A DNA stretch of 64,000 nucleotides from Anaerolineae bacterium (GTDB taxonomy: Bacteria; Chloroflexota; Anaerolineae; Aggregatilineales; Aggregatilineaceae). This document shows positions 14,832 to 60,267 of the stretch, one piece after another (position 1 is the first letter of the stretch; every line of letters begins with the position of its first letter). The stretch is taken from assembly GCA_027494015.1 (NCBI GenBank), contig JAOSJP010000001.1:62001-126000 (forward strand). The letters run 5' to 3'. The notes below the pieces were generated by a model, which ran no database searches, was not told the origin of the DNA, and was given only the letters and a program-made list of their open reading frames with translations. Both the position numbers and the translations under genes were made by a program.

Positions 14832-17800
14832 CCTCAATTTCGAGGCGCAGCCGCTCCTGCGCGGGCACGGCGACGACATCCCCATGACGCCGACGCACTG
14901 GACGGTTGGCGGGAGCGACGCCCTCGCGTTCGAGATTCCCATTGACGGGGTAATCCGCGAGATCGAGGTTCTTCACCTGGGCGACCCGCTGCGCGACTCC
15001 GGCGAAGAGGCCGTCCGCCTGACGCTGACCGCGCCCGACGGGACGCAGACCTCGACGGTGCTGCGCGGCGACTTCAACGAGGGGGCGAACCCGCTCGGCC
15101 CGCCGCAGGTGGCTGTCTTCGACCCGCCGCTGCGCGTGGAGCGCCTGGACGCCAGCGGCCAGCGCCAGCTTGCCACGCTGACGGTGGAGGCGCTCGACCC
15201 GGTGTACACCTCCGGCGCGGTGATCGCCTGGGAGGGCGACTGGGACGACCCGATCCCCTGGACGGTGTGCCCGCTGCCCGACGATGTGGTCTACCGCGAC
15301 GATCTGCCGTCGGGCCTGTCTTCGTATGACTGCCCGGCGGTGAATATGTTCGGCCCGCACGTGCAGGGCATCAAGCTGTGGATGGTGGCCGAAGACAACG
15401 AAGAGAAAATCACGGCGATGACCGGGGCGCTCGACCAGGCTGATTATCTGGTCATCTCCAGCAACCGCTTCTATGACTCGCTGTCGCGCATCCCCTGGCG
15501 CTGGCCGATGAGCCTGGCTTTCTACGAGGCGCTGTTCGACGGGCGGCTGGGCTATGAGCTGGTGCGCCAGTTTGAGTCCGCGCCGCAGCTTGGCCCTTTC
15601 CGCATCCGCGACCAGGTGACGCCGCTGGACGACCTGCCCGCCTGGGTCAACGAGCACTGGGAGGCCGAGGAAGCCTTCAGCGTCTACGATCACCCCATTG
15701 TGCTCGTCTTCAAGAAGACGGACGCCTATTCGCCGGAGACCGTGCGGGCGCTGCTGGAGAGCGTGACCATTCGCCCGGTGCGCTCGGCCTATCCCGGCTA
15801 TGTGGCCGACCCGGAGCCGGTCGGCGTGGTGACCTGGCGCGCCCAGGAATCAACGCAAAGCCCGACGCTGCTGCATTTCGACGCTGACAAGTGGGAGACT
15901 CAGCGGGCGGGCGGCACCTGGCGCGACCTCTTTGACCCGGACTCGCTCCTCAACCGCAGCCAGATCGCGGCGCTGATCGCCTGGTGGCTGCTGATCGTGC
16001 TGGCGGGGTGGATCGCCTGGCCGCTGCTGTTTGTGGCGCTGCCCGCGCTGCCGGATCGCGCTTATCCGGCGGCCAAGATCGCCGCCTGGCTGATCGTCGC
16101 CTGGGTCGCCTGGGCGGGCGGGACGCTCGGCCTGCGCACGTGGTCGCGCGGCGGGCTGGCGCTGCTTCTGCTGGCGCTGGCCGCGCTGAGCCTGGCCGCC
16201 GTCTGGCGGCGGCGGGGGCAGCTCGCCGCCTACGTGCGCGCCAACTGGCGCTTCCTGCTGGCGATGGAGGCGCTGACCCTGGCGCTGTTCCTGGCCTTCG
16301 TGGGCGTGCGCCTGACCAACCCCGACCTGTGGCACGGCAGCTTCGGCGGCGAGAAGCCGATGGACTTCGCCTACTTCAACGCCGTGCTGCGCAGCACGGT
16401 CTTCCCGCCGCTCGACCCCTGGTTCTCCGGCGGGTACATCAACTACTACTACTTCGGCTATGTGATCGTCGGCGCGCCGGTCAAGCTGCTGGGCATCGCC
16501 CCGTCGGTGGCTTATAACCTGATCATCCCGGCGCTGTTCGCCATGACGGGCATCGGCGTGTTCAGCGTTGCCTACAACTGGGTGCGGGCGCGCTCGGCCA
16601 GGCCGGGGCAGAGCGCCTCACCCCCTAAATCCCCCTCTCCAGCCGAGCCAGAGAGGGGGACTTCGCCGCTCGACGTAGGGGCGTATCGCCATACGCCCCT
16701 ACGAGGCGGGGCGGGGCAGGGTACTGCCTATGTGGAGCCGCGCCCCCCGCAGGGCAACGCCTGGCTGGCCGGGCTGCTGGCGCTGCTGCTGGCGATGGTG
16801 CTCGGCAACCTGGGCACGCTGCACGTCGTGGTGACCAACATCGCCGCGCTGGACGGCTGGTCGCAGCCATCGCTGTACGAGCAGGTGCGTCGCCAGGAGG
16901 CCCAGGCGCAGCGCGACCGGCTCTACCAGAAGTTTTACGCGGAGGAGGTCAAGGACTTCCGCGCGGAGCATGGCGGCCAGGAGCCGGTCGAGGCGGGCGA
17001 CATGTTCGCCGTGACTGACGCCGCTCAGCGCCGGGTAGAGGCGACTATCGAGGACTACGCCGAGCACCCGCCGCTGCTGCGCCTGTGGCAGTATGAGCTG
17101 GGCAACCTGCGCGAGCAGATCGGGGCGTTCTTCGGCGGACTGAGCAAGGTGCTGGACGGGCAGCCGCTGCCCATGGCCACACACCGCTGGTACTGGGGGC
17201 CGACGCGCATTATCAGCGAATTGCCGGACGGGGCCGGGCGCGGGGCCATCGCCGAGATGCCCTACTTCACTTTCCTCTACGGCGATCTGCACGCGCACAT
17301 GATCGCCTTCCCGGTGACGCTGCTGGTGCTGCTCTGGCTGCTGGCCGAGATCCTCGGGGCGGGGCACGCGCTGCGCACCTGGTGGGAGGCGGGGCTGGCC
17401 CTGGCCCTGGGCGCGCTGGCCGTCGGCGTGCTGCGCCCGACCAACTCCTGGGACTGGATCACGTACCTGCTGCTGGGCATCGCCGGGCTGACTTTCGTCG
17501 CCTGGCTGGGCGCTGTGCGGGCGCGGCGCGGCGATCCGCCGCCGGAGATCGCCGGGCGGCTGTGGGGTTGGCTGCGTCCGGGCCAGGCGCGCGAGCTGTG
17601 GCTGGTTCTGCTCGTGCTGCCCGTGGCGTTGGCCGCCCGCGTGGGCTTCTACTTCGTCCAGCGCGCCCTGGCCGACCAGGAGGCGGCGCGTGGGGCCAGA
17701 GTGGAGCCGGTGACGCTCAGCCCCTCCAGCGCCGTCGCCTGGATGATCGCCGGGCTGGCCCTGGTCGTCGCCCTGTACGCCGCCGCGCTGATCGCGGCGC

Positions 17801-19161
17801 GCGTCCGGCTCGACCGGCGGCTGCTGTGGGCGTGGATTGGGCGGGTGGCGCTGTTCGTCGGGCTGACCTTCGTCGTCGGGCTGCCGTTCACGGCCTATTT
17901 CGCCACCGCTTATGAGTCGGTCAAGCCCTGGGAGCAGGAGACCACGCCGCTGTGGGCGTATCTGTACGTGCATGGCACCTTCATCTTCCTGGTGATCTCG
18001 CTGCTGGTCTGGCAGACGGCGCGCTGGCTGCGCCGCGTGCGCGTGCGCGCGCTGGAAGGGCTGGCCGTGCCCGTGCTGGGGATCGGCGGGGGGCTGCTGC
18101 TGGTGCTCGTTGGCTCCATCGTCTACGGCGTGCGCGAGGCGGCGGTCGCGCAACTGGCCGGGCCGCTGATCGCCTGGGCCGCGCTGCTCTTCTTCCTGCC
18201 GGGGCAGAGCGCGCTGCTGCGCGCCCTGAACGCGCTGATCGTCCTGGCGCTGGCGATCTCGCTCGGCGTGGAGCTGGTGGTGCTGGATGGCGACATTGGC
18301 CGCCAGAACACGGTCTTCAAGTTCTACTTGCAGGTCTGGTTCCTATTGAGTATTGTCGGCGGGGTGGGGCTGGCCTGGATGCTGCACAGTGCCGGGCGCT
18401 GGCACCCGCTGCTGCGCGCGCTGTGGCAGGGCGGGCTGGCCGTGCTGCTGACCATCGCCGCGCTGTATCCTGTGCTGGCGACGCGGGCGCGCGCCCTGGA
18501 TCGCTTCAACCGGGAGGCGACGCCGCTGACGCTCGACGGCATGGAGTACATGAAGCACGCCCTTCACGGCGAGTCCGGCCTGACCTTCCGGCTGGAGGGC
18601 GATTACGACATGATCCACTGGCTGCAAGAGAACGTCGAAGGCACGCCGGTGGTCATGGAGGCGCACCTGTACCCGTCCGAATATCATTGGGGCGGGCGGA
18701 TCAGCATCTACACCGGGCTGCCGACCATGCTCGGCTGGCGCTTCCACCAGATTCAGCAGCACAGCCTGGAGGACATGAATCTGCTGGTGCAGACGCGCGA
18801 GAACAACGCGGCGGCCTTCTATTCGCTGGGTGGGGAGGAAGGCATCCGCGCGGCGCGACGCTTGATTGAGCACTACGACATCGAGTACATCGTCGTCGGC
18901 ACATTGGAGCGGGCCTTCTATGGCGACATCGCCCTCGACCCGGCCACAGGGTTGCAGACGGCGGGGCACGCCGAGGGCCTGGCCAAGTTCGACGCGATGG
19001 CGGCGACGGGCCTGCTGACGCTGGAGTACAGCGCCGACCGTTGCCTGAACACGGCCATCACCGACGCGGCGGCCTGCCCGCCGGCGCAGGTTTACACGGA
19101 CAAGATTTACCGCGTCGTGACGGACGCGGCGTTGGGCGAGCCGGTCGCCCAGGCACAGTAG
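14803..19161 (+). CDS. DUF2298 (Chlor_Arch_YYY) giant membrane protein
   Basis: Starts GTG at 14803 if separate; 1452 residues. Residues 1-370 are soluble and beta-rich (FEIPIDGVIREIEVLHLGD...). A membrane domain starts near 385. The defining segment reads GEKPMDFAYFNAVLRSTVFPP, then GGYINYYYFGYVIVGAPVKL, the YYY motif, followed by FTFLYGDLHAHMIAFPVTLL and PTNSWDWITYLLLG. The C-terminal domain (GDYDMIHWLQENVEGTPVVMEAH, RLIEHYDIEYIVVGTLER) is extracytoplasmic and shared with the next gene. Residues of about 605-645 are encoded by an intergenic-type repeat (16616-16702) inserted in frame between two membrane segments; the neighbouring paralogue lacks it. The family's biochemical activity is unknown. 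Confidence 0.85.
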   Translation: MADGAPATVDLNFEAQPLLRGHGDDIPMTPTHWTVGGSDALAFEIPIDGVIREIEVLHLGDPLRDSGEEAVRLTLTAPDGTQTSTVLRGDFNEGANPLGPPQVAVFDPPLRVERLDASGQRQLATLTVEALDPVYTSGAVIAWEGDWDDPIPWTVCPLPDDVVYRDDLPSGLSSYDCPAVNMFGPHVQGIKLWMVAEDNEEKITAMTGALDQADYLVISSNRFYDSLSRIPWRWPMSLAFYEALFDGRLGYELVRQFESAPQLGPFRIRDQVTPLDDLPAWVNEHWEAEEAFSVYDHPIVLVFKKTDAYSPETVRALLESVTIRPVRSAYPGYVADPEPVGVVTWRAQESTQSPTLLHFDADKWETQRAGGTWRDLFDPDSLLNRSQIAALIAWWLLIVLAGWIAWPLLFVALPALPDRAYPAAKIAAWLIVAWVAWAGGTLGLRTWSRGGLALLLLALAALSLAAVWRRRGQLAAYVRANWRFLLAMEALTLALFLAFVGVRLTNPDLWHGSFGGEKPMDFAYFNAVLRSTVFPPLDPWFSGGYINYYYFGYVIVGAPVKLLGIAPSVAYNLIIPALFAMTGIGVFSVAYNWVRARSARPGQSASPPKSPSPAEPERGTSPLDVGAYRHTPLRGGAGQGTAYVEPRPPQGNAWLAGLLALLLAMVLGNLGTLHVVVTNIAALDGWSQPSLYEQVRRQEAQAQRDRLYQKFYAEEVKDFRAEHGGQEPVEAGDMFAVTDAAQRRVEATIEDYAEHPPLLRLWQYELGNLREQIGAFFGGLSKVLDGQPLPMATHRWYWGPTRIISELPDGAGRGAIAEMPYFTFLYGDLHAHMIAFPVTLLVLLWLLAEILGAGHALRTWWEAGLALALGALAVGVLRPTNSWDWITYLLLGIAGLTFVAWLGAVRARRGDPPPEIAGRLWGWLRPGQARELWLVLLVLPVALAARVGFYFVQRALADQEAARGARVEPVTLSPSSAVAWMIAGLALVVALYAAALIAARVRLDRRLLWAWIGRVALFVGLTFVVGLPFTAYFATAYESVKPWEQETTPLWAYLYVHGTFIFLVISLLVWQTARWLRRVRVRALEGLAVPVLGIGGGLLLVLVGSIVYGVREAAVAQLAGPLIAWAALLFFLPGQSALLRALNALIVLALAISLGVELVVLDGDIGRQNTVFKFYLQVWFLLSIVGGVGLAWMLHSAGRWHPLLRALWQGGLAVLLTIAALYPVLATRARALDRFNREATPLTLDGMEYMKHALHGESGLTFRLEGDYDMIHWLQENVEGTPVVMEAHLYPSEYHWGGRISIYTGLPTMLGWRFHQIQQHSLEDMNLLVQTRENNAAAFYSLGGEEGIRAARRLIEHYDIEYIVVGTLERAFYGDIALDPATGLQTAGHAEGLAKFDAMAATGLLTLEYSADRCLNTAITDAAACPPAQVYTDKIYRVVTDAALGEPVAQAQ
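16616..16726 (+). repeat. dispersed repeat cluster inside a coding sequence
   Basis: Within the DUF2298 gene lie two modules otherwise seen only between genes. One is a CCCCCTCTC / GAGAGGGGG hairpin preceded by CCTCACCCCCTAAAT. The other is the 28-base palindrome at 16675-16702 with arms GTAGGGGCGTAT / ATACGCCCCTAC. The reading frame stays open through both, adding a Pro/Ser/Gly-rich loop. Confidence 0.85.
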
Positions 19162-19335: not shown

Positions 19336-22063
19336 ATGGACGTTTCGCTGATCACGGACTGGCTGGGGCGCGAAGGCGGCTTCGTGCTGCGCTGGTGGCT
19401 GCTGGTGACGCTGGCCGGCGCGGCGGCCTGGCCGCTGCTCTTCCGCCTGGCGAGGGCGCTGCCGGACCGCGGCTATACGCTGGCCCGCGCCGCCGGGCTG
19501 ATGCTGACCGGGTTCGTCTTCTGGTTCCTGGGCAGCGTTGGCCTGCTGCGCAACGATCCGGCGGGGATGGCCTTCGCCTGGCTGGTGGTGGTTGCTCTGG
19601 GGGTGATCGCCCTGTGGCGCTGGGGCGAGCGTCCTTCGCTGCGGCTCTGGCTGGGCGAGCACTGGCCGCTGGTGGCCGTGACGGAGGTGCTGTTCCTGGC
19701 GCTGCTCTTCGGCTGGGCGATTGTGCGGGCGCACAACCCGGAGATGGCCGAGCACCGAAAAGCCGATGGAGATCATGTTCGTCAACGCCATCCGCGCCAG
19801 CGAGACCTTCCCGCCGCAGGACGCCTGGCTGAGCGGCTACGCGATCAGCTACTACTACTTCGGCTACGTGCTCATCGCCATGCTCGCCGACCTGAGCGGC
19901 GTGTCGAGCGGCATCGCCTTCAATATCACCATCGCGCTCGTCTTCGCCCTGACGGGCACCGGCGCGCTCGGCATCGTCTATAACCTGGTGCGCGCGGACG
20001 CTCTGCGGCGCGGCGCGGCGGCGCGCCTCAACGCGCTGGGCGCGGGCGCGTTGGGGCTGTGCTTCCTGGTGCTGATGGGCAACCTGGGCACGGCGCTGGT
20101 CGAGCTGCCCTGGCTCGGCTATGCGCCGGGGCTGGTCAACGCCGCCTATTTCGATTTCTGGGACGTGGAAGAGCGCGCTGGCACCAGCGAAGTGATCGGC
20201 GAGGACGGGACGCTGCGGGTCGTCCCGGCGGACGCCGACGGCGATGGCGTCCCCAACTGGGAAGAGCCGCGCCTGCCGCTGGATGGCTTCAAGTTCACCT
20301 ATGGCCTGGGCTGGCGCTACAGCCGCACCATCCACGACCGCGACCTGAGCGGCACGCCACATCCCATCCAGCCAATCGCCGAGTTCCCCATCTTCAGCTT
20401 CACGCTGGCCGATCTGCACCCGCACGTGCTGGCGCTGCCTTTCGCGACGCTGGCCATCGGGCTGGCGCTGGCGCTGGTGCTGGGCGGGCGCGGGCTGGCG
20501 CGCTGGGAATACCCCTTCTACGCCATCTGGGTGGGCGGGATGGTCTTCGTCAACTCGTGGGACGCCATCTACCTGCCGCTGCTGGTCGGCGCGGAGGCGC
20601 TGCGCCGCCTGCTGCGCAACGGGAACGGCGTGCTGCACGGGCGCGATCTGGTGGGCCACCGTCCGCTTCGCGGCGATCCTCGGCGGGCTGACGCTCGCCT
20701 GCTACCTGCCCTGGCTGATCTCGTTCACGTCGCAGGCGGGCGGCGCGCTGCCCAACGTCATCTACCCGACGCGGTGGCCGCAGTTCTTCTTGCAATTCGG
20801 CGTCTTTCTCGTCCTGCTGACCGGCTTCCTGCTGGTCGAGATGCGGCGGGCGGGCCGGCGCTTCAACTGGGGGGCGGGCTTGCTGGCGGCGGGGCTGCTG
20901 GCGGCGGCGCTCGTCCTGGTGACGGGCGTGCTGGGGCTGCTGGCCTGGGAGAGCGACATGCGCGGGGCCGTCTTCGGCAGCACCGCCCCCGGCGCTAGCC
21001 TGGGCGACCTGCTGCCGGACATCCTGGCGCGGCGGCTGATCGGGCTGCCGACCGAGCTATGGATCTTCCTGCTGGTGGCGCTGGTCGTCGGGCGGCTGTT
21101 CGCGCGCCCGGCGGCTGGTGCGGCGCGCCGGCCGCTGGCGCGCTCAGCCCGGCGACCGCCTTCGCCCTGCTGCTGGCCGGGGCGGGGGCCGTGCTGACCG
21201 TCGCGCCGGACTTCGTTTATCTGCGCGACAACTTCGGGGTGCGCATCAACACCGTCTTCAAGCTCTACTACCAGGGCTGGATTCTGTTCAGCATCGCGGC
21301 GGCGTTTGGCGCGTGGTCGGTGCTGGGCAAGCTCGCCGGGACTGAGCGCCCCGTCAGCCGCCGCGCCGTCGCCCTGCAAGGCGTGTATGCGGCGGCGTTG
21401 GTGCTGCTCCTGGCGGCGGGGATGGCCTACCCCATCCTGGCGACGCGGGCGCGCGCCCTGGTGGACTCAGGGCGGCTGGCCGCCCAGGATCGCCGCGCGG
21501 AGTGCCAGCGGGCTGCTGCTGAGACAGGAGAGACGGTGCAGTGCGAGTCGCTGCCCGCGCTGACGCTGGACGGGGTGCCGACGATGGTCAGCGCCGACGA
21601 GCTTGCGGCCATCCAATGCCTGGCCGCGCTGGAGAGCGGGAGCGGGGCGGTGCTGGCCGAAGCGCCGGGCGGCGCTTACGAGCCGCACAAGAGCCGCTTC
21701 AGCGGGCTGACGGGCCTCCCCACGCTGATCGGCTGGCAGAATCACGAGCGGCAGTGGCGCGGCGCGACGTATGCAGAGGTGACCGACTACCGGCTGGAGA
21801 ACGGCGAGCGCCGCGACCGGGCCAGGGACGTGGAAGACCTCTACACCACGCAGGACTGGGCGCGCGCCTGGCAGATCATTGACCGCTATGGCATTGATTA
21901 CGTTGTCGTCGCCGGGGCGGAGCGGACGATGATCCGCCAGCTTGCCGGGGACGACGCGGGCCGCCAGCGCGAGTACGAGCAAGGGCTGGCTAAGTTCGAG
22001 CAGGTCTTGACGCCGGTGTGCGAGTCCGGGAGCGTGGCCGTTTACCGGGTCAGGGCGAGGTGA
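19336..22063 (+). pseudogene. second DUF2298 (Chlor_Arch_YYY) protein, broken by three frameshifts
   Basis: Tandem paralogue of the preceding gene, about 900 residues if repaired. The ATG at 19336 opens MDVSLITDWLGREGGFVLRW. The frame changes at 19751: removing one A there gives NPEMAGTEKPMEIMFVNAI, the conserved family text. It changes again at 20651: removing one G gives GRDLWATVRFAAILGGL. A third change at about 21110-21150 restores PATAFALLLAGAGAVLTVAPDF. Diagnostic segments are GYAISYYYFGYVLIAMLADL, FTLADLHPHVLALPFATLAI, and the C-terminal IIDRYGIDYVVVAGAERTMI. It is either a decaying gene copy or an intact gene with assembly errors. Confidence 0.8.
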
Positions 22064-22080
22064 TCGAAGGCGGACTGTTG

Positions 22081-24081
22081 ATGAGCACGAGTGTGAACGA
22101 CGCGGCGCTGCCGTTCGGCGAGCCGCACGCTGACGAGACCGATACGCAGCCCATCCCGCTGGGGGCGGCGCTGCGCGTCCGTGTGACGCCGGAAGCCCTG
22201 CTCTACGTGGCGCTCGCGGTGTTGGCGCTGATCTTGCGCGTCGGCGCGCTGGATCGCGCGCCGCTGGACGACGCCCAGGCGCACCAAGCCCTGGCCGCGC
22301 TGCGCGCAGTGGACGGGCGCGTGCCGGGCGGCGCGCTCGTCGCCGACAGCCCGCTGACCTTCGCCCTGAACGCGCTCACCTTCGGCGTGACCGGGGGCGC
22401 CAACGAGACGCTGGCGCGGCTGCCGGTGGCGCTGGCCGGCGCGCTGCTGGCGCTGGCTCCCGCGCTGTGGCGACGCTACCTCAACCCGTTGCCCGCGCTG
22501 ATCCTCAGCCTGCTGCTGGCCATCTCGCCGGTGGCGGTGCTGGCGGCGCGGACGATGAGCGGCGTCACCTGGACGATGCTGCTGGCGCTGGTCGCGCCCT
22601 GGCTGGCGCTGCGCTTCGTCGAGACGGGCGAGCGGCGCTGGGCGGTCCTGGCGACGGTGGCGCTGGCGGCGATGGTCTTCCTGGCCGAGCCAGCGGGCTT
22701 CCTGACGCTGCTGGGGCTGGCTTTTGGCCTGACCTTCGCCTGGCTGACGGACGATGATCCCGGCTCCGCCGCTGCCGCCGGGCTGCGCCGGACGGCGCGG
22801 GCCTGGCCCTGGGCGGGGGGCGTGCTGGCCGCCGCGCTGGTCGTCGTGGGTGTGGCGACGGTCTTGTACTGGGTTCCAGCGGGGCTGACATCGGTCGGCC
22901 AGGTGTTGTGGGCCGGGCTGCGCGGCTTCGCCGAGCGACCGGCGGGCGTGGCGACGGCCTTCCCGGCGTGGGTAGCCCTGCGCTACGAGCTGGGCATTGT
23001 CGCCTTCGGGCTGCTGGCCTTGTACCATGCGGTGCGCCAGGGCGGGTTCTTCGAGCGGGCGCTGGCGGGCTGGGCGCTGGCCGGCATCGTGTGGTCGGTG
23101 GGCTATGGCGGGGCGGGCGCGGCTCATGCTCTGTGGATCACAGTGCCCCTGACCGTATTGGTTGCGCTGCGCGTCACCGACTGGCTGACTGAGCGCGGCG
23201 GCGTGCTGTGGGACGTGCCGGGCTGGGGCGTGCCGCTGCACGCGCTGGTCACTTTCGGGCTGTGGCTGGCGGTGGGGCTGAGCGTGATCCTGCTCGGCAA
23301 GCAGCTTCTTTATGATCTGCCGCGCGAAGTGACCGACCTGGGCGCGCTGGTCGAGCGGCTCTTCGCCGACATCTACAGCCGCAACACGAATTTCGAGACG
23401 CAGCAGATCGCCTCGATTGAGGTGCAGCCCGGCGTGTTCGCCTGGGCGTATGTGCTGGGCTTCATCCAGCTTCGCCTGCTGGTCACGGTGCTGGTGTCGC
23501 TGCTCAACGGCGTGCTGTTCTTCCTGGTGGGCAGCCTGTGGGGCGCGCGCGCCGCATGGCGCGGCTTCGCCCTGGGCACGCTGGCCGCGCTGCTGCTGAT
23601 CAGCGCCGGGTTGGGCGGGCAGGCGGCGCTCAGCCGCGTGGGCGACCCGCGCGAGCTTTGGCTGAGCGACCCGGTGACGGCTGACGTGTACGAGCTGCGC
23701 GCGACGCTGCGCGAGATGAGCCTGCGCGCTACCGGCGAGCCGCGCCTGCTGACGGTCACGGCGCAGGTGCCGCCGGACGGGGCGCTGGCCTGGGCGCTGC
23801 GCGACTATCCCAACACCGTGTTCGCAGACGGAGTGGGCGCGGAGGTGACTTCAGCGGCGGTGATCGCGCCCGCCCGCGACGATCCGCCGCGCATGGGCGC
23901 GCCCTACGTGGGCAAAGAGCTGATCGTGCGCCAGGCGTGGGACATTGACACGCTCTCGTGGCGCGACGCGATCCTCTGGTTCTATCGCGGCGACTCGGCG
24001 GTCAAGCCGGTGAGCGGCGGGCGGCTGACGCTGTGGGTGCGCAACGACGTGTATGGCGTCGAGCGCGTCACTGAGGAATAG
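22081..24081 (+). CDS. GT39/Agl23-like membrane protein
   Basis: 666 residues starting at ATG 22081 (MSTSVNDAALPFGEP). After a short cytoplasmic tail the first helix ends in LRVGALDRAPLDDAQAHQALAALRAV, the acidic-loop position of GT-C enzymes, and about twelve helices follow. Near residue 420-460 a stretch LYDLPREVTDLGALVERLFADIY interrupts the helices. The C-terminal 140 residues are soluble (LRATGEPRLLTVTAQVPPDGAL...). It follows the broken DUF2298 gene by 17 bases and precedes the sigma factor by 19. The helix and loop pattern resembles a diverged oligosaccharide-transferring protein; substrate unknown. Confidence 0.72.
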   Translation: MSTSVNDAALPFGEPHADETDTQPIPLGAALRVRVTPEALLYVALAVLALILRVGALDRAPLDDAQAHQALAALRAVDGRVPGGALVADSPLTFALNALTFGVTGGANETLARLPVALAGALLALAPALWRRYLNPLPALILSLLLAISPVAVLAARTMSGVTWTMLLALVAPWLALRFVETGERRWAVLATVALAAMVFLAEPAGFLTLLGLAFGLTFAWLTDDDPGSAAAAGLRRTARAWPWAGGVLAAALVVVGVATVLYWVPAGLTSVGQVLWAGLRGFAERPAGVATAFPAWVALRYELGIVAFGLLALYHAVRQGGFFERALAGWALAGIVWSVGYGGAGAAHALWITVPLTVLVALRVTDWLTERGGVLWDVPGWGVPLHALVTFGLWLAVGLSVILLGKQLLYDLPREVTDLGALVERLFADIYSRNTNFETQQIASIEVQPGVFAWAYVLGFIQLRLLVTVLVSLLNGVLFFLVGSLWGARAAWRGFALGTLAALLLISAGLGGQAALSRVGDPRELWLSDPVTADVYELRATLREMSLRATGEPRLLTVTAQVPPDGALAWALRDYPNTVFADGVGAEVTSAAVIAPARDDPPRMGAPYVGKELIVRQAWDIDTLSWRDAILWFYRGDSAVKPVSGGRLTLWVRNDVYGVERVTEE

Positions 24082-24100
24082 AGCGGGGCCGGGGTGTAGA

Positions 24101-24733
24101 ATGAGCATCGTGCGCGAAACACCACAAAACCTGCCAGGCCCGGCCAATGACCCGGACCTGCTGGATTTGATCGCCCGCTGCCTGGCCGGGGATCAGGGCG
24201 CTTTTGGCACGCTTTACGAGCGGCACGCGTCGAGCCTGTACCGCCTGGCCTACAGCGTGCTGCTCGTCGAGCAGGACGCCGAGGACGTGCTGCAAGAGGC
24301 GATGGTCTACGCTTTCCGCAACCTGCACCGCTACGACCCGGCGCGCGGCGCGTTCCGCACGTGGCTGTACACGATCACCATCAGCCGCTGCCGCAACGCC
24401 CGCCGCCGCAAATGGCTGCCGACGGTGGCGCTGGCCCATCTGCTTTTGATCGGGGTGGAGCCGCCCGCTCCCGCCGACGAGGGGCCGGAGCATCGCGCGG
24501 CCTGGGCCGAGCTGCGCGACTCGCTGCGCCAGGCATTGGCGACGCTCTCGCCCCGGCTGCGCGAGGCGGTCGCCCTGCGCTACGGGCAAGGGCTGACCTA
24601 CCGCGAGATGGCGGCGATTATGGACTGCCCGCAGAAGACGGCGGAGAGCCGCGTCCGGCTGGCGCACGAGCAGCTTCGCGGGGCGATGAGCGCGGCGGAC
24701 GCGGCGGCGCTGGCCGAGTTGTGGCAGGTGTAG
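24101..24733 (+). CDS. sigma-70 family (ECF-type) RNA polymerase sigma factor
   Basis: 210 residues. Region 2 is seen in GTLYERHASSLYRLAYSVLL, then DAEDVLQEAMVYAFRNLHRY and AFRTWLYTITISRCRN. Region 4 has the helix-turn-helix LSPRLREAVALRYGQGLTYREMA and SRVRLAHEQLR. There is no region 1 or 3. The ATG at 24101 is preferred over upstream in-frame starts that lie inside the previous gene. A probable membrane anti-sigma factor follows after a repeat-filled gap of 133 bases. The pair most likely answers an envelope signal and may control the surrounding membrane-protein genes (inference). Confidence 0.9.
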   Translation: MSIVRETPQNLPGPANDPDLLDLIARCLAGDQGAFGTLYERHASSLYRLAYSVLLVEQDAEDVLQEAMVYAFRNLHRYDPARGAFRTWLYTITISRCRNARRRKWLPTVALAHLLLIGVEPPAPADEGPEHRAAWAELRDSLRQALATLSPRLREAVALRYGQGLTYREMAAIMDCPQKTAESRVRLAHEQLRGAMSAADAAALAELWQV

Positions 24734-24866: not shown

Positions 24867-25430
24867 ATGCGCGACCGCCATGTAACTCATCTGCTCACGC
24901 GCTACGTGCACGGGCAGCTCAGCCCGGCGCAGGAGGCGCGCGTGGTCAACCACGTGCGGACGTGCGCGCGCTGCCGGGCGGCGCTGGCCCGCGAGGAACG
25001 GGTCGCCGACGATCTGCGCGGCGAGCTGGCCGTGATCGGGCGAGGATCGGCGGCGCCGGTCGCGGCAGCGTGGGCGGGCGTGTGGCGCGAAGTCCGCTCG
25101 CCGCGCTCGCGGGCGCGCGCCGTGGTCGCGCTGTGGCTGCCGGGGCTGAGCCTGGCTCTGGCGGTGGCGCTGGCCCTGGCAGTGGCGCTGCCGCTGCTGG
25201 CGAGCGGCGGTGTGCGCGCCGAGGCCGCGCCGCAGCAGCCGCGCCCGGTTCTCATGGCGTCGCCGACGCCGGGCGTCACCCAGACGGACGAGGCGATTGA
25301 CGCCGCTGGAACCATGCTGCGCGCGCTGCCGCAGGCAACGGTTGCTTTTGTCGGCGAAGTGGGGGCCAGCCCCGTGCCGATGCCACAGGCGACCGTTTCG
25401 CCGGAAGCGGTGCTGGGCGCGCCGCACTGA
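24867..25430 (+). CDS. putative zinc-finger anti-sigma factor, single-pass membrane protein
   Basis: 187 residues. The N-terminal cytoplasmic domain carries His29-x3-Cys33-x2-Cys36 (NHVRTCARC), the ZAS motif of ECF anti-sigma factors. One very hydrophobic segment at residues 87-111 (VVALWLPGLSLALAVALALA) should cross the membrane. An external Pro/Ala/Thr-rich tail of about 75 residues could be the sensing or cleavage region. Its place just after the ECF sigma gene supports the call. The repeat array begins at its stop codon. Confidence 0.8.
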   Translation: MRDRHVTHLLTRYVHGQLSPAQEARVVNHVRTCARCRAALAREERVADDLRGELAVIGRGSAAPVAAAWAGVWREVRSPRSRARAVVALWLPGLSLALAVALALAVALPLLASGGVRAEAAPQQPRPVLMASPTPGVTQTDEAIDAAGTMLRALPQATVAFVGEVGASPVPMPQATVSPEAVLGAPH

Positions 25431-26229: not shown

Positions 26230-29200
26230 ATGGCCACACGCGAACACTCCACCTCTTCGCCGGACACGCACGAGCGCGCTGTCACGCAGGCGCTGACGCG
26301 CGCCTACGCCGTCAACTGGGCGGGCCTGGCGCTGGCGGTGCTCCTGCTGCTGGCGGTGATCACGCGCTTTTACGACCTGGGCACCCGCGTGATGAGCCAC
26401 GACGAAAGCCTGCACACCTATTACTCGTGGCGGCTGTCCGAATACGGCGAGTTCAACCACACGCCGCTGATGCACGGCCCGCTGCTGTTCCACATGACGG
26501 CCCTTGCCTACTTCCTGTTTGGCGATAGTGACTTCACCGCGCGGTTGTATCCGGCGTTGCTGGGCGTGCTGATTGTGGGCTTTCCCTGGCTGTTCCGGCG
26601 CTGGCTGGGGCAGACGGGCGCGCTGATCGCCGCCCTGCTGCTGCTGATCTCGCCGCAGCTCTTGTACTACAACCGCTACATCCGCCACGACACGCCGACG
26701 ATCTTCTTCGCGCTGGTCATCCTTTACGCCATTGTGCAGTACGTGGATGGCACTCCCGTGCGCCGCCCAGCCTGGCTATGGGTGCTGGCGGCGGGCCTGA
26801 TCGGGATGCTGGCCTCGAAGGAAGTGGCTTTCATCTACATCGCCATCTTCGGCGCTTTCCTGGCGCTGTACTGGCTGCTGCGCATGGTGCAGGATGTGGG
26901 CGTCCGCCGCCGCCCTGTGCAAGGGGCTGGCTGGGAAGCGCCCTGGCTCCAGCGGGCCATCGGGCACGCTCTGCTGCTGGTCGTGACCGGCCTGTTCGCC
27001 GTGACGATGGGCAGCTTTTTGCGCCTGCTGCTGTCGCCGCTGTGGGCTGTGCCGTCGGCGGCCTGGCTGATCGTCCCGTTGTTCGCGGCCATCTACCTGC
27101 CGCTGGCGCTCAGCGGCGCCGTGCGCCGGATACAGCGCGGCGAGCCGTCGGGCGGCGCAGCCTCGGCCATTGCCGGCTGGTTGGGGGACGGGCGCTCGGC
27201 GTTCTATACGCTGGTGGCCGGGCTGATCGTCGGCGCGGCGGTCGCGCTGTGGATCGTGACCGTGCTGGACGTGATCAAGCCGGGCGACATCTGGACGGAG
27301 ACGACCGCGCGCAGCGAGGCTGACCTGCTCTACGGGCAGAATGGCACGAAGGAGTTCGCCGTTGAGACCGGCTTCAACGGGACGATGTTCGTCCGCCTGC
27401 TGACCTGGGTGGGCCTGCCTGTGCTGGGCCTGCTCTTCGCGCTGTTTCTCAGCGCCGTGTTCGTCTTTCCGGGCCGGCTGGCGCTGCCCTGGCGGACGAT
27501 GCTGATCATCCTGCTGGTGGCGCTGCTGGTGGTCGGCCTGCTGGTCATGTTCGAGCGGCACAGCCATGTCAGCGAGACGACGACCAAGCCGTTCGCGGCG
27601 GATCCGACCGCCGTGCACACGACCGACGGCGACCGCTATGACAACATGCCGATCATCGTCGCCTGGGTGCTGGGCACGCTGCTCACGCTGGCCGTGCTCG
27701 GCACGCGGCTGCTGACGAACCTGTGGGACTTCCTCAACCGCCAGCCGATCTTCGACGTGCTGATCGTCATCGGCACGCTGATTCTGCCCTGGCTGGCTGG
27801 TTTCCCGCTTTACTGGGCGGGCTACAACCTGGAAGACTACAACCCAAACTCCATCGAGGGCCGGGCCACGCTCGAAGCGTCGCTGCCCGCCGTCCTGCCC
27901 TTCCTGATGGTGGCGGTGGCGGTGGGCCTGTCCTGGAACTGGCGGCGCTGGCTTGCAGCGGCGGCGATTTTCCTGGGAATCTTCGCTTTCTTCTTCACAA
28001 CCGTCTTCAGCAACCAGTACGGGCTGGTGACGGGCATGATCGGCTCGCTCGGCTACTGGCTCGAGCAGCAGGGGGTGCGGCGCGGCAGCCAGCCACAGTA
28101 CTACTACCTGCTCACCCAACTGCTCGTCTACGAGTTCCTGCCGCTGGTCGGGGCGTTGGGCGCGGGCGGACTGGGGTTGGCCAGGCTGTGGCGCTGGCGG
28201 CGCGACCGCGCCCTGGATGCGCTGGCCCAGGCGCAGGCCGCGCCGGTCGAGGCTGAGGAAGAGGCTCCGCTGGCCGCGCAGCCGACGCTCGCTGCCGCGC
28301 AGCATAGCGCCGCGACGGTTGCCGCTGCCGCCGCCCCGCAAGACCTCGATCCTGGCCCGGACAGGGCGCGACCAGCGCCCCTGGCGAGGCCATTCGACCT
28401 GGCCGAGGAGCTGGCCCGCCGCGCCGCCGACCGCGAGTGGATCGGCGCGCTGCCCTTCCTGGCGCTGGCTGGCTGGTGGTCGGTGGCCATGCTGCTGGGG
28501 CTGACCATTGCCGGGGAGAAAATGCCCTGGCTGACGACGCATCTGACCGTCCCGCTGATCCTGGTCAGCGGCTGGTGGCTGGGCCAGGTGGCCGACGGCG
28601 TGCGCTGGCGTGCGCTCGGCGTAGGCGGCTGGCTGGTGCTGCTCGGCGCGATGCCGCTGGCGCTGCTGGCCCTGGGGCGCGGCGTGCTCGGCGTGTGGGG
28701 CGGGCGGGCATCGTTCGGCGGGCGCTCGCTGGAAGACCTGATCGCCAGCGGGAGCTGGCTGGGCGCGCTGCTGGTGCTGGGCGGCGCGGTGTACGTCATC
28801 TGGCGGCTGGGCCGTCCGCTGGGCCGGGGGCAGCTTGGCCGGGCGGCGGTGCTCTCTGGCGCGCTGGTGCTGGCCGTGCTGACCGCGCGCGCGGCGATCC
28901 TGGCCTGCTTCATCAACCACGACTATGCGACCGAGTTCCTGGTCTATGCTCACTCCGGCCCGGCGGTCAAGACGGTGATGGACGAGATCGATCGCATCGC
29001 GGCGATCACCAACGAAGGCACGGGCATGCGCATCGTCTTCGACGACGAGTCCTCCTGGCCGTACACGTGGTACTTCCGCCATTACGCCAACTACGGCTTC
29101 ATACGCGGGGAGGCGGGCAGCGTGGACTCTGGCTCGCTGGAAGGGGCGCGCATTGTGGTCGTCGGCAGCAAGAAAGTGGGCGACGTGCGCACCATCCTGG

Positions 29201-31449
29201 GCGACCGCTATTACGAATTCGGCTATATCCGCCTGTGGTGGCCGATGCAGGAGTATTTCAACCTGACGTATGACCGCGTGGCGAAGGTCTTCAGCACGGA
29301 CAAGGCCAACATCGCCGCGCCGTACTACCGCCAGGGGCTGTGGGACATCTGGTGGAGCCGAGACTACAGCACCTATGGGCGGGCCATGTGCATCGAGACC
29401 AAGCAGTTCCGCTGCGAGAGCGAGGCCAGCCTGGGGACGACCGACGAGGAGCGCGCCGCGTTCCGCCGCTCGTGCGAGCTAGCGGTTGTCAACGAGTGCG
29501 CCAGCGATGACCGCTTCGCCGTGAGCAAGTGGCCTGTCTCCGACCGCATGTATTTCTTTGTGGACAAGCAGATCGCCGCCCAGGTGTGGGACGCCGGGAT
29601 CGGGAGCAGCACGGTCAACATCCGCGAGCCGGAATACCAGGAAGATCGGGTCTACCGCGAGATCGCCGCCGAGCGCACGCTGGGCGAAGTGGCCGGGATG
29701 ATCGGGCCGCGCGGCATCGCCCTCGATGAGGACGGCACGATCTACGTGGCCGACACCGACCGCAGCCGCATCGCGCTGTTCAGCGCGCAGGGCGAGTTCC
29801 TGCGCAGCATCGGCGACCCGGCGACTGCGCCGACCGGGGCAGGGCTGCGCCAGCCCTGGAGCCTGGATGTCGGCCCGGATGGGCTGATCTATGTGGCCGA
29901 CACGTGGAATAACCGTGTGGCAGTCCTCACCCGCGAGGGCGAGTTGGTGCGCGCCTGGGGGCACGAAGGCGTGCCGGCCTCCGACCCGTCGCCGGAAGCG
30001 ATGTGGGGGCCGCGCGACCTGAAGATCGGCCCCGATGGGCTGGTCTACGTGGCCGACACGGGCGGCAAGCGCATCCGCGTCTACACGCCGGAAGGCAGTT
30101 GGGTGCGCGACATCGGCAGCGGCGGGGCGGGCCTGGGGCAGGTGGATGAGCCGGTTGGCCTGGCCTTCAACCCCGTCTCGCGCGAGCTATACGTGGCCGA
30201 GGCGTGGAACAAGCGCATCCAGGTCTTTGACCTGACGGGCGCGCCGCTGCGCACGTTCGATGTGAATATGTGGTTCCGCAACCGCCAGTCGTACAACCGA
30301 CCGTACCTCGCCGTCAGCCCGGACGGCACGCTGATCTACGCGGTAGACATGGACGACCGGCACCGCATCGTTGCCTACAACCTGGCCGGGGAGCCTGCGC
30401 TCTCCTTCAACCAGCCGGACAGCCTGGAGACGGGCGCGCTCGGCGTGCGCTCGCCGGCGGGCCTGGCCTTCGACGCGACGGGCCGCCTGTACGTGGTAGA
30501 CGCGGCGCAGGCGAAGGTCTATGTCTTCCCGCCGCCGGATGTGTCCGGCAGCGTGGCGCCGGTGCTGCCCGCCGACGTGCTGGCTCCCTCCGCGCCGGAC
30601 CTGGACACTGAGAGCGGCGGCGAGCTGTTGTCGCCAGAGAGCGAGGCGCAGGGCGAAGCTGAGACGGGCGGGCAGAGTCCCGCTGAGGCGAGTCTGCTGC
30701 CTGCCGGGTCGCCCAACGAGGACTGGACTCCGCTGGTGGAGACGATCAACGGGCTGGCGGTGGTCTACGTGCCGGGGGGTTGTTACCAGACGGGAGCCGG
30801 GCCGCAGGTGTGCGTCAGCGCGTTCTGGCTGGGGCAGCACGAGGTGACGAACCTGGACTACGCCGCCTGCGTGGAGAACGAAGCCTGCACGCCGCCCGCC
30901 GACCGCACGGCCTTCGACGCCAGCGAGTTCGCCGGCGTGCCGGTGGTCGGGCTGACCTGGGCGCAGGCGAGCGACTACGCCGCCTGGATCGGGGGCGCGC
31001 TGCCGGGCGAAGCGCAGTGGGAGTACGCGGCGCGCGGGCCGGCGGGCTGGGCGTATCCCTGGGGCGAAGACGAGCCAGCCTGCGATCTGGCCAACACGCA
31101 GGGCTGCGGCGGGCTGCTGCCTGTGGACGGGGAGAGCCGCGCCGCCGGGCAGTCCTGGGTCGGCGCGCTCGACCTGGCGGGCAGCGTGTGGGAGTGGACG
31201 GCGGACTGGTTTGACGACGATCCGTTGGCCGGGCTGCCGGACGGCGTGCTCGACCCGCCCGGCCCGCTTGCGGGCACCGAGCGGGCGATTCGCGGCGGGT
31301 CGTGGCGCGCGCCCGCTGACTACGCTGCCGCCACGTATCGCGAGGCGCGCGACCCGGCGCTCGGCTTCGACGACGTGGGCCTGCGCGTGGTCTTCCCGGC
31401 GGAGATGCTGCCCCTGGCGGCGGAGGGGCAGGGCGCATCCCACCCTTAG
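26230..31449 (+). CDS. Agl23-like membrane protein fused to NHL propeller and FGE-fold domain
   Basis: 1739 residues; the ATG at 26230 has AGGAAAG upstream. Domain order: a GT-C-like membrane domain with the Agl23 signature RVMSHDESLHTYYSWRL (near residue 53) and HTPLMHGPLLFH, helices to about residue 895, with a charged insert near 665-735. A soluble segment follows to about 1150. Six NHL-type blades come next (1159-1440; repeated IALDEDGTIYVADTDRSRI pattern). A disordered linker leads to a formylglycine-generating-enzyme/SUMF1 fold from about 1503 (VVYVPGGCYQTG, HEVTNLDYAACV, LPGEAQWEYAARGP, GSVWEWTADWF, RGGSW at 1688). The catalytic cysteines expected after RGGSW are absent (RAPADYAAATYREARD), so the last domain is probably a binding module. 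The extracytoplasmic half may recognise glycan or cell-wall ligands. Confidence 0.88.
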   Translation: MATREHSTSSPDTHERAVTQALTRAYAVNWAGLALAVLLLLAVITRFYDLGTRVMSHDESLHTYYSWRLSEYGEFNHTPLMHGPLLFHMTALAYFLFGDSDFTARLYPALLGVLIVGFPWLFRRWLGQTGALIAALLLLISPQLLYYNRYIRHDTPTIFFALVILYAIVQYVDGTPVRRPAWLWVLAAGLIGMLASKEVAFIYIAIFGAFLALYWLLRMVQDVGVRRRPVQGAGWEAPWLQRAIGHALLLVVTGLFAVTMGSFLRLLLSPLWAVPSAAWLIVPLFAAIYLPLALSGAVRRIQRGEPSGGAASAIAGWLGDGRSAFYTLVAGLIVGAAVALWIVTVLDVIKPGDIWTETTARSEADLLYGQNGTKEFAVETGFNGTMFVRLLTWVGLPVLGLLFALFLSAVFVFPGRLALPWRTMLIILLVALLVVGLLVMFERHSHVSETTTKPFAADPTAVHTTDGDRYDNMPIIVAWVLGTLLTLAVLGTRLLTNLWDFLNRQPIFDVLIVIGTLILPWLAGFPLYWAGYNLEDYNPNSIEGRATLEASLPAVLPFLMVAVAVGLSWNWRRWLAAAAIFLGIFAFFFTTVFSNQYGLVTGMIGSLGYWLEQQGVRRGSQPQYYYLLTQLLVYEFLPLVGALGAGGLGLARLWRWRRDRALDALAQAQAAPVEAEEEAPLAAQPTLAAAQHSAATVAAAAAPQDLDPGPDRARPAPLARPFDLAEELARRAADREWIGALPFLALAGWWSVAMLLGLTIAGEKMPWLTTHLTVPLILVSGWWLGQVADGVRWRALGVGGWLVLLGAMPLALLALGRGVLGVWGGRASFGGRSLEDLIASGSWLGALLVLGGAVYVIWRLGRPLGRGQLGRAAVLSGALVLAVLTARAAILACFINHDYATEFLVYAHSGPAVKTVMDEIDRIAAITNEGTGMRIVFDDESSWPYTWYFRHYANYGFIRGEAGSVDSGSLEGARIVVVGSKKVGDVRTILGDRYYEFGYIRLWWPMQEYFNLTYDRVAKVFSTDKANIAAPYYRQGLWDIWWSRDYSTYGRAMCIETKQFRCESEASLGTTDEERAAFRRSCELAVVNECASDDRFAVSKWPVSDRMYFFVDKQIAAQVWDAGIGSSTVNIREPEYQEDRVYREIAAERTLGEVAGMIGPRGIALDEDGTIYVADTDRSRIALFSAQGEFLRSIGDPATAPTGAGLRQPWSLDVGPDGLIYVADTWNNRVAVLTREGELVRAWGHEGVPASDPSPEAMWGPRDLKIGPDGLVYVADTGGKRIRVYTPEGSWVRDIGSGGAGLGQVDEPVGLAFNPVSRELYVAEAWNKRIQVFDLTGAPLRTFDVNMWFRNRQSYNRPYLAVSPDGTLIYAVDMDDRHRIVAYNLAGEPALSFNQPDSLETGALGVRSPAGLAFDATGRLYVVDAAQAKVYVFPPPDVSGSVAPVLPADVLAPSAPDLDTESGGELLSPESEAQGEAETGGQSPAEASLLPAGSPNEDWTPLVETINGLAVVYVPGGCYQTGAGPQVCVSAFWLGQHEVTNLDYAACVENEACTPPADRTAFDASEFAGVPVVGLTWAQASDYAAWIGGALPGEAQWEYAARGPAGWAYPWGEDEPACDLANTQGCGGLLPVDGESRAAGQSWVGALDLAGSVWEWTADWFDDDPLAGLPDGVLDPPGPLAGTERAIRGGSWRAPADYAAATYREARDPALGFDDVGLRVVFPAEMLPLAAEGQGASHP

Positions 31450-32022: not shown

Positions 32023-33726
32023 ATGCGTTTATCCGACCTGTTCACCCGCACGCTGCGCGACGCTCCCGCCGATGCTGAGCTGATCAGCCACAAGCTGGCC
32101 GTGCGCGCCGGACTGGTGCGCCCGGTTGCGGCGGGCGTCTACGCGCTGATGCCGCTCGGCTGGCGCGTCGTGCGCAAAATTGAGGCGATTCTGCGCGAGG
32201 AGATGGAGGCCATCGGCGGGCAAGAGGTGCGCCTGCCGGTGGTGCATCCGGCGGAGCTATGGCAGGCGACCGGGCGCTGGGGGACGTTTGGGCCGGCCCT
32301 GCAGAAATTCGTGGCAGAGTCCGGGAGGGAGTACGTCCTGGGGCCGACGCACGAGGAAGTGATCGCCGCGCTGGCCGCGCGCGAGATTGACAGCTACAAG
32401 CAGCTTCCGCAGCACCTCTTCCAGATTCAGACGAAATATCGCAACGAGCCGCGCGCGCGGGGCGGCCTGATCCGCCTGCGCGAGTTCACCATGAAGGACG
32501 CCTATTCGCTGGACGCCGACGACGCCGGGCTGGATCGCTTCTATCCGCGCATGGTCGCCGCCTACGCGCGCATTTTCGAGCGGGCCGGCGTGCCCGCCCT
32601 GGCGGTCGAGGCGGATTCGGGGACGATGGGCGGGGGCGTCAGCCACGAGTTCATGCTCGTCCACGAAGCGGGCGAAGACTCGCTCGCGCGCTGCGACGCC
32701 TGCGGCTACGCGGCCAACCTCGAAGCCGCCCAGTTCGCGCTGCCAGCGCCGGCGCAGACCCCGCTCCAGCCGTTGCAGAAGGTCGCCACGCCGGACTGCA
32801 CCACGATCCAGGCGGTGGCCGACTTCCTGGGTGTGCCGACCAGCCAGACGCTCAAGGCGGTCTTCTTTGTGCAGGAGCGCCCGCCCGCGCCGGAGCGTTT
32901 CGTCTTCGCGGTGATTCGCGGCGATCTGGAGGTCAACGAGGTCAAGCTGTTGCGCGCATTGGGCGGCGGGGCGCTGCGCGCGGCGACCGACGACGAGATC
33001 ACGGTGACGGGCGCGGTGCCGGGCTACGCCAGCCCGATGGGACTGCCGCCAGAGGTGACGGTCGTCGCCGACCGGTCGGTGCGGGCAGGCGCGAACTTCG
33101 TGGCCGGGGCCAACGACGCGGGCTATCACCTGGCCGGCGTGAACGTCCCGCGCGACTTCGACCCGGCGCTGCTGGCCGACATCGCCGCCGCCTCCGACGG
33201 GGCGACGTGCGCGCGCTGCGGGCAGGGGACGCTGCGCGTCGAGCGGGCTATCGAGCTGGGACATTGCTTCAAGCTGGGGACGCGCTACAGCGAGGCCGTC
33301 GGGGTGACGTACACCGATGAGACGGGCGCGGAGCACCCGGTGGTCATGGGTAGCTACGGGATCGGGCTGGAGCGGCTGATGGCGGCGATCATCGAGACGC
33401 ACCACGACGAATGGGGCATCATCTGGCCCAAGAGCGTCGCCCCGTTCGACGTGCACCTGCTCACCCTGGGCAAAGACCCGCAGCCTGGCGAGATCGCCGC
33501 GCAGGTCTACGCGGACTTGCGCGCCGCCGGGCTGGACGTGCTGCTCGACGACCGGGCGGAGTCGGCGGGCGTCAAGTTCGCTGACGCCGATCTGATCGGG
33601 ATTCCTGTGCGGCTGGCGGTCAGCGGTAAGGCGCTGGCGGCGGGCGGGGTGGAGGCCAAGCGGCGCGATTCCGCCGAGCGGGTGATCGTGCCGCTGGACG
33701 CGGTCGCGGCCTGGGTGCGGGGGTAG
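32023..33726 (+). CDS. proS: prolyl-tRNA synthetase, bacterial type with editing domain
   Basis: 567 residues, the usual length. Charges tRNA-Pro in the cytoplasm. Class II motif 1 and 2 regions are visible (VYALMPLGWRVVRKIEAILR; IQTKYRNEPRARGGLIRLREF) and motif 3 near the end (VVMGSYGIGLERLMAAIIE). Between motifs 2 and 3 lies the YbaK-like INS editing domain (QAVADFLGVPTSQTLKAVFF ... RALGGGALRAATDDEI), which deacylates Ala-tRNA-Pro. The C-terminal anticodon domain is DVLLDDRAESAGVKFADADL. GAGGAGG lies six bases before the ATG. It has its own promoter and long leader. Confidence 0.97.
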   Translation: MRLSDLFTRTLRDAPADAELISHKLAVRAGLVRPVAAGVYALMPLGWRVVRKIEAILREEMEAIGGQEVRLPVVHPAELWQATGRWGTFGPALQKFVAESGREYVLGPTHEEVIAALAAREIDSYKQLPQHLFQIQTKYRNEPRARGGLIRLREFTMKDAYSLDADDAGLDRFYPRMVAAYARIFERAGVPALAVEADSGTMGGGVSHEFMLVHEAGEDSLARCDACGYAANLEAAQFALPAPAQTPLQPLQKVATPDCTTIQAVADFLGVPTSQTLKAVFFVQERPPAPERFVFAVIRGDLEVNEVKLLRALGGGALRAATDDEITVTGAVPGYASPMGLPPEVTVVADRSVRAGANFVAGANDAGYHLAGVNVPRDFDPALLADIAAASDGATCARCGQGTLRVERAIELGHCFKLGTRYSEAVGVTYTDETGAEHPVVMGSYGIGLERLMAAIIETHHDEWGIIWPKSVAPFDVHLLTLGKDPQPGEIAAQVYADLRAAGLDVLLDDRAESAGVKFADADLIGIPVRLAVSGKALAAGGVEAKRRDSAERVIVPLDAVAAWVRG

Positions 33727-60137: not shown

Positions 60138-60267
60138 TCGGCCCGCCCTTCTGCTGCGGCCCCAACGCCCCTGGGGTGTGGCGCTGCCCCAGACGTGAAA
60201 TTCCCCTGAAACGTTGGCGCTGCCCGTCAAACTCCATTATCCTTTAGGTAAGGAAAGGAGCCGGTAT

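Follow-up and report, generated by a model that had tools for sequence, protein, structure and literature searches.

Architecture of the protein

We analysed 64,000 nucleotides from an Anaerolineae bacterium of the Chloroflexota (assembly GCA_027494015.1, contig JAOSJP010000001.1, positions 62,001 to 126,000 of the forward strand), hereafter the window, and concentrate on one long gene in which an Agl23-like membrane domain of GT-C type is joined to an NHL propeller and to a domain with the fold of the formylglycine-generating enzyme (FGE). The gene is organised as follows.

26230..31449, + strand: whole gene, a single uninterrupted frame encoding 1,739 amino acids (aa) with Agl23-like GT-C domain, NHL propeller and FGE-fold domain
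26230..28914, + strand: polytopic membrane domain (TIGR03663/PMT_2, GT-C fold), residues 1-895
26395..26436, + strand: acidic loop SHDESLHTYYSWRL behind the first membrane helix, residues 56-69
28915..29649, + strand: stem with a WWPMQEY motif and four cysteines (1054, 1062, 1082, 1090), residues 896-1140
29650..30564, + strand: six-bladed NHL beta-propeller, residues 1141-1445
30565..30738, + strand: acidic low-complexity linker, residues 1446-1503
30739..31395, + strand: FGE-type domain (PF03781) with six conserved cysteines and without the FGE cysteine pair, residues 1504-1722
31291..31305, + strand: RGGSW motif, residues 1688-1692; the cysteine-free segment behind it aligns with the FGE active-site segment

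This three-part order had been proposed in a first-pass annotation, and profile matches confirm it with slightly shifted boundaries. Pfam scans covered 29 open reading frames (ORFs) of the window, out of 116 mechanically called ORFs of at least 150 aa. The membrane part scores 262.1 bits against TIGR03663, the Agl23 family (NCBIfam cut-off 126.25), with its best stretch at residues 35-245, and adopts a GT-C fold, the structural match reaching into the stem as far as about residue 1114. The NHL repeats score 105 bits and form a six-bladed propeller, which is resolved in an 859-residue structure model. The C-terminal domain matches PF03781 (FGE-sulfatase) with 99.4 bits over residues 1524-1721 (Pfam gathering score 23.3), and its sequence matches 29 distinct solved sequences, including EgtB, OvsA, PvdO and TvpA. 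FGE structures are missing from the rows of the structure search, which is uninformative because propellers fill those rows (mostly model residues 261-558). The architecture and the fold of two parts are in this sense computed directly.

Residues D58 and E59, which lie in the acidic loop (the first external loop), occur in all 114 alignment rows with sequence there; they may have the catalytic-acid role of such acidic residues in GT-C proteins. The four stem cysteines are present together in 79 of 115 rows. Although the three-domain order is already present in public databases, no description of it was found in the literature searched. The architecture is a new domain variant on a known kind of protein, real and recurrent, and the FGE part is its only unusual component.

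The FGE domain lacks the catalytic cysteine pair

None of the 21 FGE domains of this Agl23-NHL-FGE family carries the cysteine pair that follows the RGGS motif in a true FGE, and direct alignment to solved FGE sequences gives the same result. Nor do these alignments reveal catalytic cysteines elsewhere in the fold, in keeping with the first-pass annotation. Six other cysteines (1518, 1528, 1547, 1553, 1618 and 1626) are each kept in 20-21 of the 21 domains, and it is a plausible inference that they could form three disulfides. C1626 seemed specific to the family (0 of 60 other domains), but near FGE relatives have a cysteine at the same spacing, and we take the count for an alignment artefact.

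The absence of the pair had been read as the mark of a specially converted enzyme. For comparison we took 118 other FGE domains with scores of 60 bits or more. The proteins that carry them are about 956-3,043 aa long, a length filter that excludes true stand-alone FGEs; the pair is missing from all 92 domains with a readable RGG motif. An earlier survey likewise places all of its FGE proteins with N-terminal extensions among those without catalytic cysteines (PMC5915273, S9 Fig legend). Both observations argue that the missing cysteines do not represent a special conversion, and the cysteine-less state is probably inherited. Additional genome loci add a weak count (0 of 13 readable motifs among 30 loci), in which readable motifs are few because some matches are probably on the other strand. 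For fused FGE domains without the pair, automatic enzyme names are misleading; the homologue P0036, for example, is called a ‘SUMF1/EgtB/PvdO family nonheme iron enzyme’.

Recurrence of the fusion

Among 7,988 scored candidates we recovered 940 homologues, of which 120 were listed and used for domain counts. PF03781 is present in 18 of these 120 (P0001, 2, 4, 9-19, 24, 36, 40 and 49), with the N-terminal part missing from P0036 and P0049. Two tandem FGE domains occur in P0009 and P0024/L006; in the C-terminal pair of L006 (8654-10249), the second copy has no cysteines corresponding to 1518 and 1528. On GTDB contigs the FGE domain is found at 3 of 80 loci (L001, L006 and L008). Of 396 genomes, an even sample of the class to which G001 belongs, 113 gave an FGE-type match (E <= 1e-50), among the matches listed mostly in shorter frames; with seven candidates scored per genome and selected matches inspected, the fusion was confirmed in at least two of these genomes, G001 and G239. 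The G239 protein (L116) is 90% identical to that of the window, its sigma-factor neighbour 94% and its zf-HC2 neighbour 87%. An assembly artefact can be rejected on the strength of the 18 listed homologues and of this near-identical fusion in another genome. Most of the listed homologues, 102 of 120, lack PF03781.

TIGR03663 exceeds its cut-off at one place per genome in five related genomes, alongside several weaker places; in G003 the gene is apparently divided between contigs C396 and C370. We also considered whether FGE-minus relatives carry the domain as a separate nearby gene. This was rejected for the stretches read: a tblastn search of the 80 loci with this domain as query (E <= 1) matched L001, L006 and L008 only. 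FGE-minus genomes do have other FGE genes elsewhere.

Probable gain and loss of the FGE module

The history of the module was followed on a 32-row tree of residues 30-1440, combining the 18 FGE-plus rows with 14 FGE-minus loci that were read through the stop codon and for 4,069 bases or more beyond it. For this set 15 of the 80 loci were tried, and L015 was dropped for want of a readable stop or of length. Seven FGE-minus loci fall among FGE-plus rows and seven outside them, and presence or absence of the domain needs six changes, at least five of them forced by starred branches. A 115-row tree, built with those 114 of the 120 listed proteins that reach 1,290 aa, gives ten changes, eight forced. 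It includes truncated rows, among them P0038, which ends inside the propeller, and P0032, which is partial in the source, both counted as FGE-minus; because these two are doubtful, we prefer the 32-row tree.

The family FGE domains group in a single clade when set against 60 others, the portion of 83 that fell within our limits (99/98, 100% of 200 bootstrap trees), and the clade is retained after nearer relatives are added (96/84, 96%). FGE identity follows that of the NHL propeller (Spearman 0.70) and that of the stem (0.64), values reached by none of 2000 permutations. The single clade and the repeated changes of state are computed results; as to the number of gains, we infer one gain followed by about five losses as the simplest reading, because P0040 and P0009/P0024 are basal in the clade (support 88). 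The alternative is repeated gain from one donor pool.

Beyond the family, near relatives of its FGE domain include short proteins in G320 and G134, 49% identical, whose N-terminus appears lipobox-like in our own reading. Other near relatives are the FGE domains of Ser/Thr kinases (47% identical in G007, 51% in G005 and 43-47% in G239). Four of these kinases were checked, and in three of them PD40 or SH3 domains are present as well. Two of the four, L114 and L115, are the further long-frame FGE matches checked in G239 and are large Ser/Thr kinases with FGE and PD40 and/or SH3 domains. The branch uniting the lipoprotein-like proteins with the Agl23 clade is weak (85/51).

Selection on the FGE domain

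Measured against L116, the ratio of nonsynonymous to synonymous substitution rates (dN/dS) is 0.23 for the whole protein, 0.195 for the NHL propeller, 0.14 for the stem, 0.49 for the linker and 0.37 for the FGE domain. Within the latter it is 0.45 at residues 1504-1691 and 0.106 at 1692-1715, a segment of only 24 codons. The value of 0.37, together with the conserved cysteines, disfavours a degenerating pseudodomain. In alignment-dependent counts, position 1700 is arginine in 49 of 60 other FGE domains but in 3 of 21 family domains, and R1637 (21 of 21) and R1707 (20 of 21) are kept in the family at positions where arginine reaches 8% and 3% elsewhere. This pattern suggests a site that may have been retuned and is still constrained rather than decaying.

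Genomic neighbourhood

The gene lies within a conserved arrangement, and the following neighbours are syntenic.

14803..19161, + strand: Chlor_Arch_YYY / DUF2298 protein (TIGR03662, 463 bits, cut-off 300)
19721..22063, + strand: second Chlor_Arch_YYY-related gene, as two ORFs (19721-20998 and 21059-22063)
22018..24081, + strand: second Agl23-like membrane protein, sub-threshold (65 bits, cut-off 126)
24053..24733, + strand: sigma-70 factor of the extracytoplasmic function (ECF) type
24867..25430, + strand: zf-HC2 (anti-sigma-like) protein
32023..33726, + strand: prolyl-tRNA-synthetase-like gene, downstream (named by interpretation of its domains)

The order YYY, second YYY, Agl23-like, sigma, zf-HC2, Agl23-NHL gene and prolyl-tRNA synthetase is common to L001 (FGE-plus) and to L002, L004 and L007 (FGE-minus); in L002 the synthetase lies a further 2.6 kb away. 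L005 has the upstream part only, and L003, L006 and L008 have a partial order on short contigs. Upstream genes in G239 are the same as in the window (sigma, zf-HC2, Agl23-like and YYY), and its downstream side is a contig end. More distant loci keep less: among the 80, the sigma factor is found at 47, zf-HC2 at 7 and the synthetase at 6. The second Agl23-like gene recurs at 38 of the 80. Since the ECF sigma and zf-HC2 pair stands directly upstream in FGE-plus and FGE-minus relatives alike, it hints at regulated expression of an envelope locus.

The second YYY-related gene is one 907-aa frame in L116 (8956-11676, minus strand). In the window its matches pass into another frame close to where the first ORF ends, and with 152 bits the ORF at 21059-22063 does not reach the cut-off of 300; a sequencing error could account for the split, as could a broken gene. 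Other window genes include phosphomannomutase-like, GT4, LPG_synthase_TM and PMT_2-like genes, those of the last kind at 12126 and 22018 being below the Pfam cut-off, and the nearby genes fit a surface-glycan assembly locus. Further along the window are another PMT_2-like membrane protein (56468-58249) and a homologue of the bacterial archaeo-eukaryotic release factor, baeRF (60214-61413).

Discussion

GT-C enzymes and Agl23-type proteins are participants in surface glycan assembly. The protein described here resembles Haloarcula hispanica Agl23 in its family match of 262 bits and as a membrane protein tied to lipid-linked sugars; unlike the archaeal protein it has a long stem, an NHL propeller and an FGE domain, and its bacterial function is predicted. 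Identity to the GT-C glycosyltransferases STT3/AglB, ArnT and PMT is only about 9-17% in alignments. Closer at hand, Anaerolineae Agl23-NHL proteins (such as Aggregatilinea lenta P0042) share membrane domain, stem and propeller, and several FGE-minus loci have the same neighbours as the window; the difference is the absence of the FGE domain. The accessory modules recall receptor Ser/Thr kinases: the propeller matches that of the NHL sensor PknD, and the FGE domains of four Chloroflexota kinases are relatives of ours. Here, however, the effector is a GT-C membrane domain and not a kinase. With FGE/SUMF1 the domain shares by sequence the fold and the scaffold motifs WEW and RGGSW, but neither catalytic cysteine.

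We consider it probable, if by no means certain, that this is an Agl23-type GT-C protein carrying a non-catalytic, lectin-like FGE domain for recognition at a surface-glycan locus. It would be a single-copy Chloroflexota membrane protein. A sugar linked to polyprenyl-(pyro)phosphate would be bound by its GT-C part and then transferred or translocated. The stem, propeller and FGE domain would lie outside the membrane, the propeller serving as a constitutive docking module and the FGE domain, braced by disulfides, as an optional module that recognises an acceptor, a product glycan or a surface protein; the FGE domain would not act as a formylglycine-generating enzyme. The earlier proposal of a glycan-handling membrane unit with two modules, both most likely outside the cell, is supported by the TIGR03663 match and the GT-C fold; its ‘converted enzyme’ is not supported and is mostly ordinary. 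Precedents exist in TvpA/Mtd and in FGS lectin-like domains, where the fold is used, or proposed, for binding: the FGE-type C-type-lectin (CLec) folds of Mtd and TvpA, the second of which our domain matches by sequence, are described as ligand-binding (PMC5006420), and FGE-type folds are proposed as lectin-like sensors in conflict systems (PMC8195603).

Several points weigh against this interpretation. The membership of Haloarcula hispanica Agl23 (HhAgl23) in TIGR03663 is taken from the NCBI family name, the hydropathy scan is noisy, and the external side of the C-terminal modules is a prediction, as are ligand, acceptor and activity. The dN/dS of the FGE domain, and more so of residues 1504-1691, is above that of propeller and stem, and the model is poor in the second FGE half, where nine of twelve ten-residue blocks (1601-1720) have a predicted local distance difference test (pLDDT) score below 60. 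Moreover, the domain is absent from many relatives with the forced state changes noted above, its identity is weakly correlated with that of the GT-C part (Spearman 0.35, reached by 37 of 2000 permutations), and the basal position of P0040, on which the single gain leans, is unstarred at a support of 88.

A narrower view concerns the membrane part and can be compatible with the recognition reading. It holds that this part is a glycosyltransferase only, that the ‘Agl23 flippase’ label is misleading, and that propeller and FGE domain hold acceptors rather than gate translocation; we give it a substantial chance, if somewhat below even. Counting against it, we know of no transferase assay for any TIGR03663 member. 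HhAgl23, for its part, translocates lipid-linked oligosaccharide in vitro (PMC11182771).

We think a mainly structural role of the FGE-fold domain unlikely; on this view it would be a disulfide-rich module without a ligand, serving as a spacer or in assembly, either to hold the propeller in position or to bring about oligomerisation. The six conserved cysteines, the tandem copies and the repeated absence on the tree would all suit such a role, as would the precedent of OCTIN, a crystal-forming protein whose FGE domain lacks the cysteine pair (PMC5915273). Nevertheless, the arginine shift (3 of 21 against 49 of 60 at position 1700; R1707 in 20 of 21 against 3%), alignment-dependent as it is, resembles a retuned site, and residues 1692-1715 are conserved between the window and L116 (dN/dS 0.106), albeit over 24 codons. 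More improbable still is a different enzymatic activity, with oxidative chemistry of the EgtB, SenA or PvdO kind on an extracellular substrate. EgtB, OvsA and PvdO are indeed among the solved matches, and NCBIfam equivalogs give sub-threshold hits; but these fall far under their cut-offs (SenA 55.4/420, EgtB 49.7/360 and PvdO 28.8/500 bits, with GldK at 51.2/350), Pfam reports no further domain of those enzymes in the protein, and the FGE cysteine pair is missing from 21 of 21 domains. That the 3' end is the variable region of a diversity-generating retroelement, and the domain a hypermutated receptor, has next to no likelihood: FGE-type CLec domains are typical targets of such elements (PMC5006420, PMC8195603), and within the family the entropy of residues 1692-1715 is high (mean 1.92 bits), yet other FGE domains vary more in that segment (2.63 bits) and close relatives do not differ there in a hypervariable manner (dN/dS 0.106, 24 codons). 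In contrast to TvpA/Mtd, nothing in the window resembles a template repeat of the final 200 bases of the gene (non-self matches of at most 18 bases), and a reverse transcriptase (RVT_1) is absent from three of the four FGE-bearing relatives' genomes (G239, G001 and G003) and present once in G002.

Returning to the recognition reading, a bolder extension, which we advance with considerable doubt, is that the FGE domain is an exchangeable sensor shared with the receptor Ser/Thr kinases and lipoproteins of the lineage, through which a GT-C machine would read an external acceptor or product. If true, the acquisition of the domain at one orthologous locus, and its repeated loss there, would tell apart lineages that differ in their surface-glycan targets. 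In related bacteria one orthologous gene carries the lectin-like FGE domain zero, one or two times, which offers a natural comparison of the effect that an exported accessory domain may have on a glycan machine.
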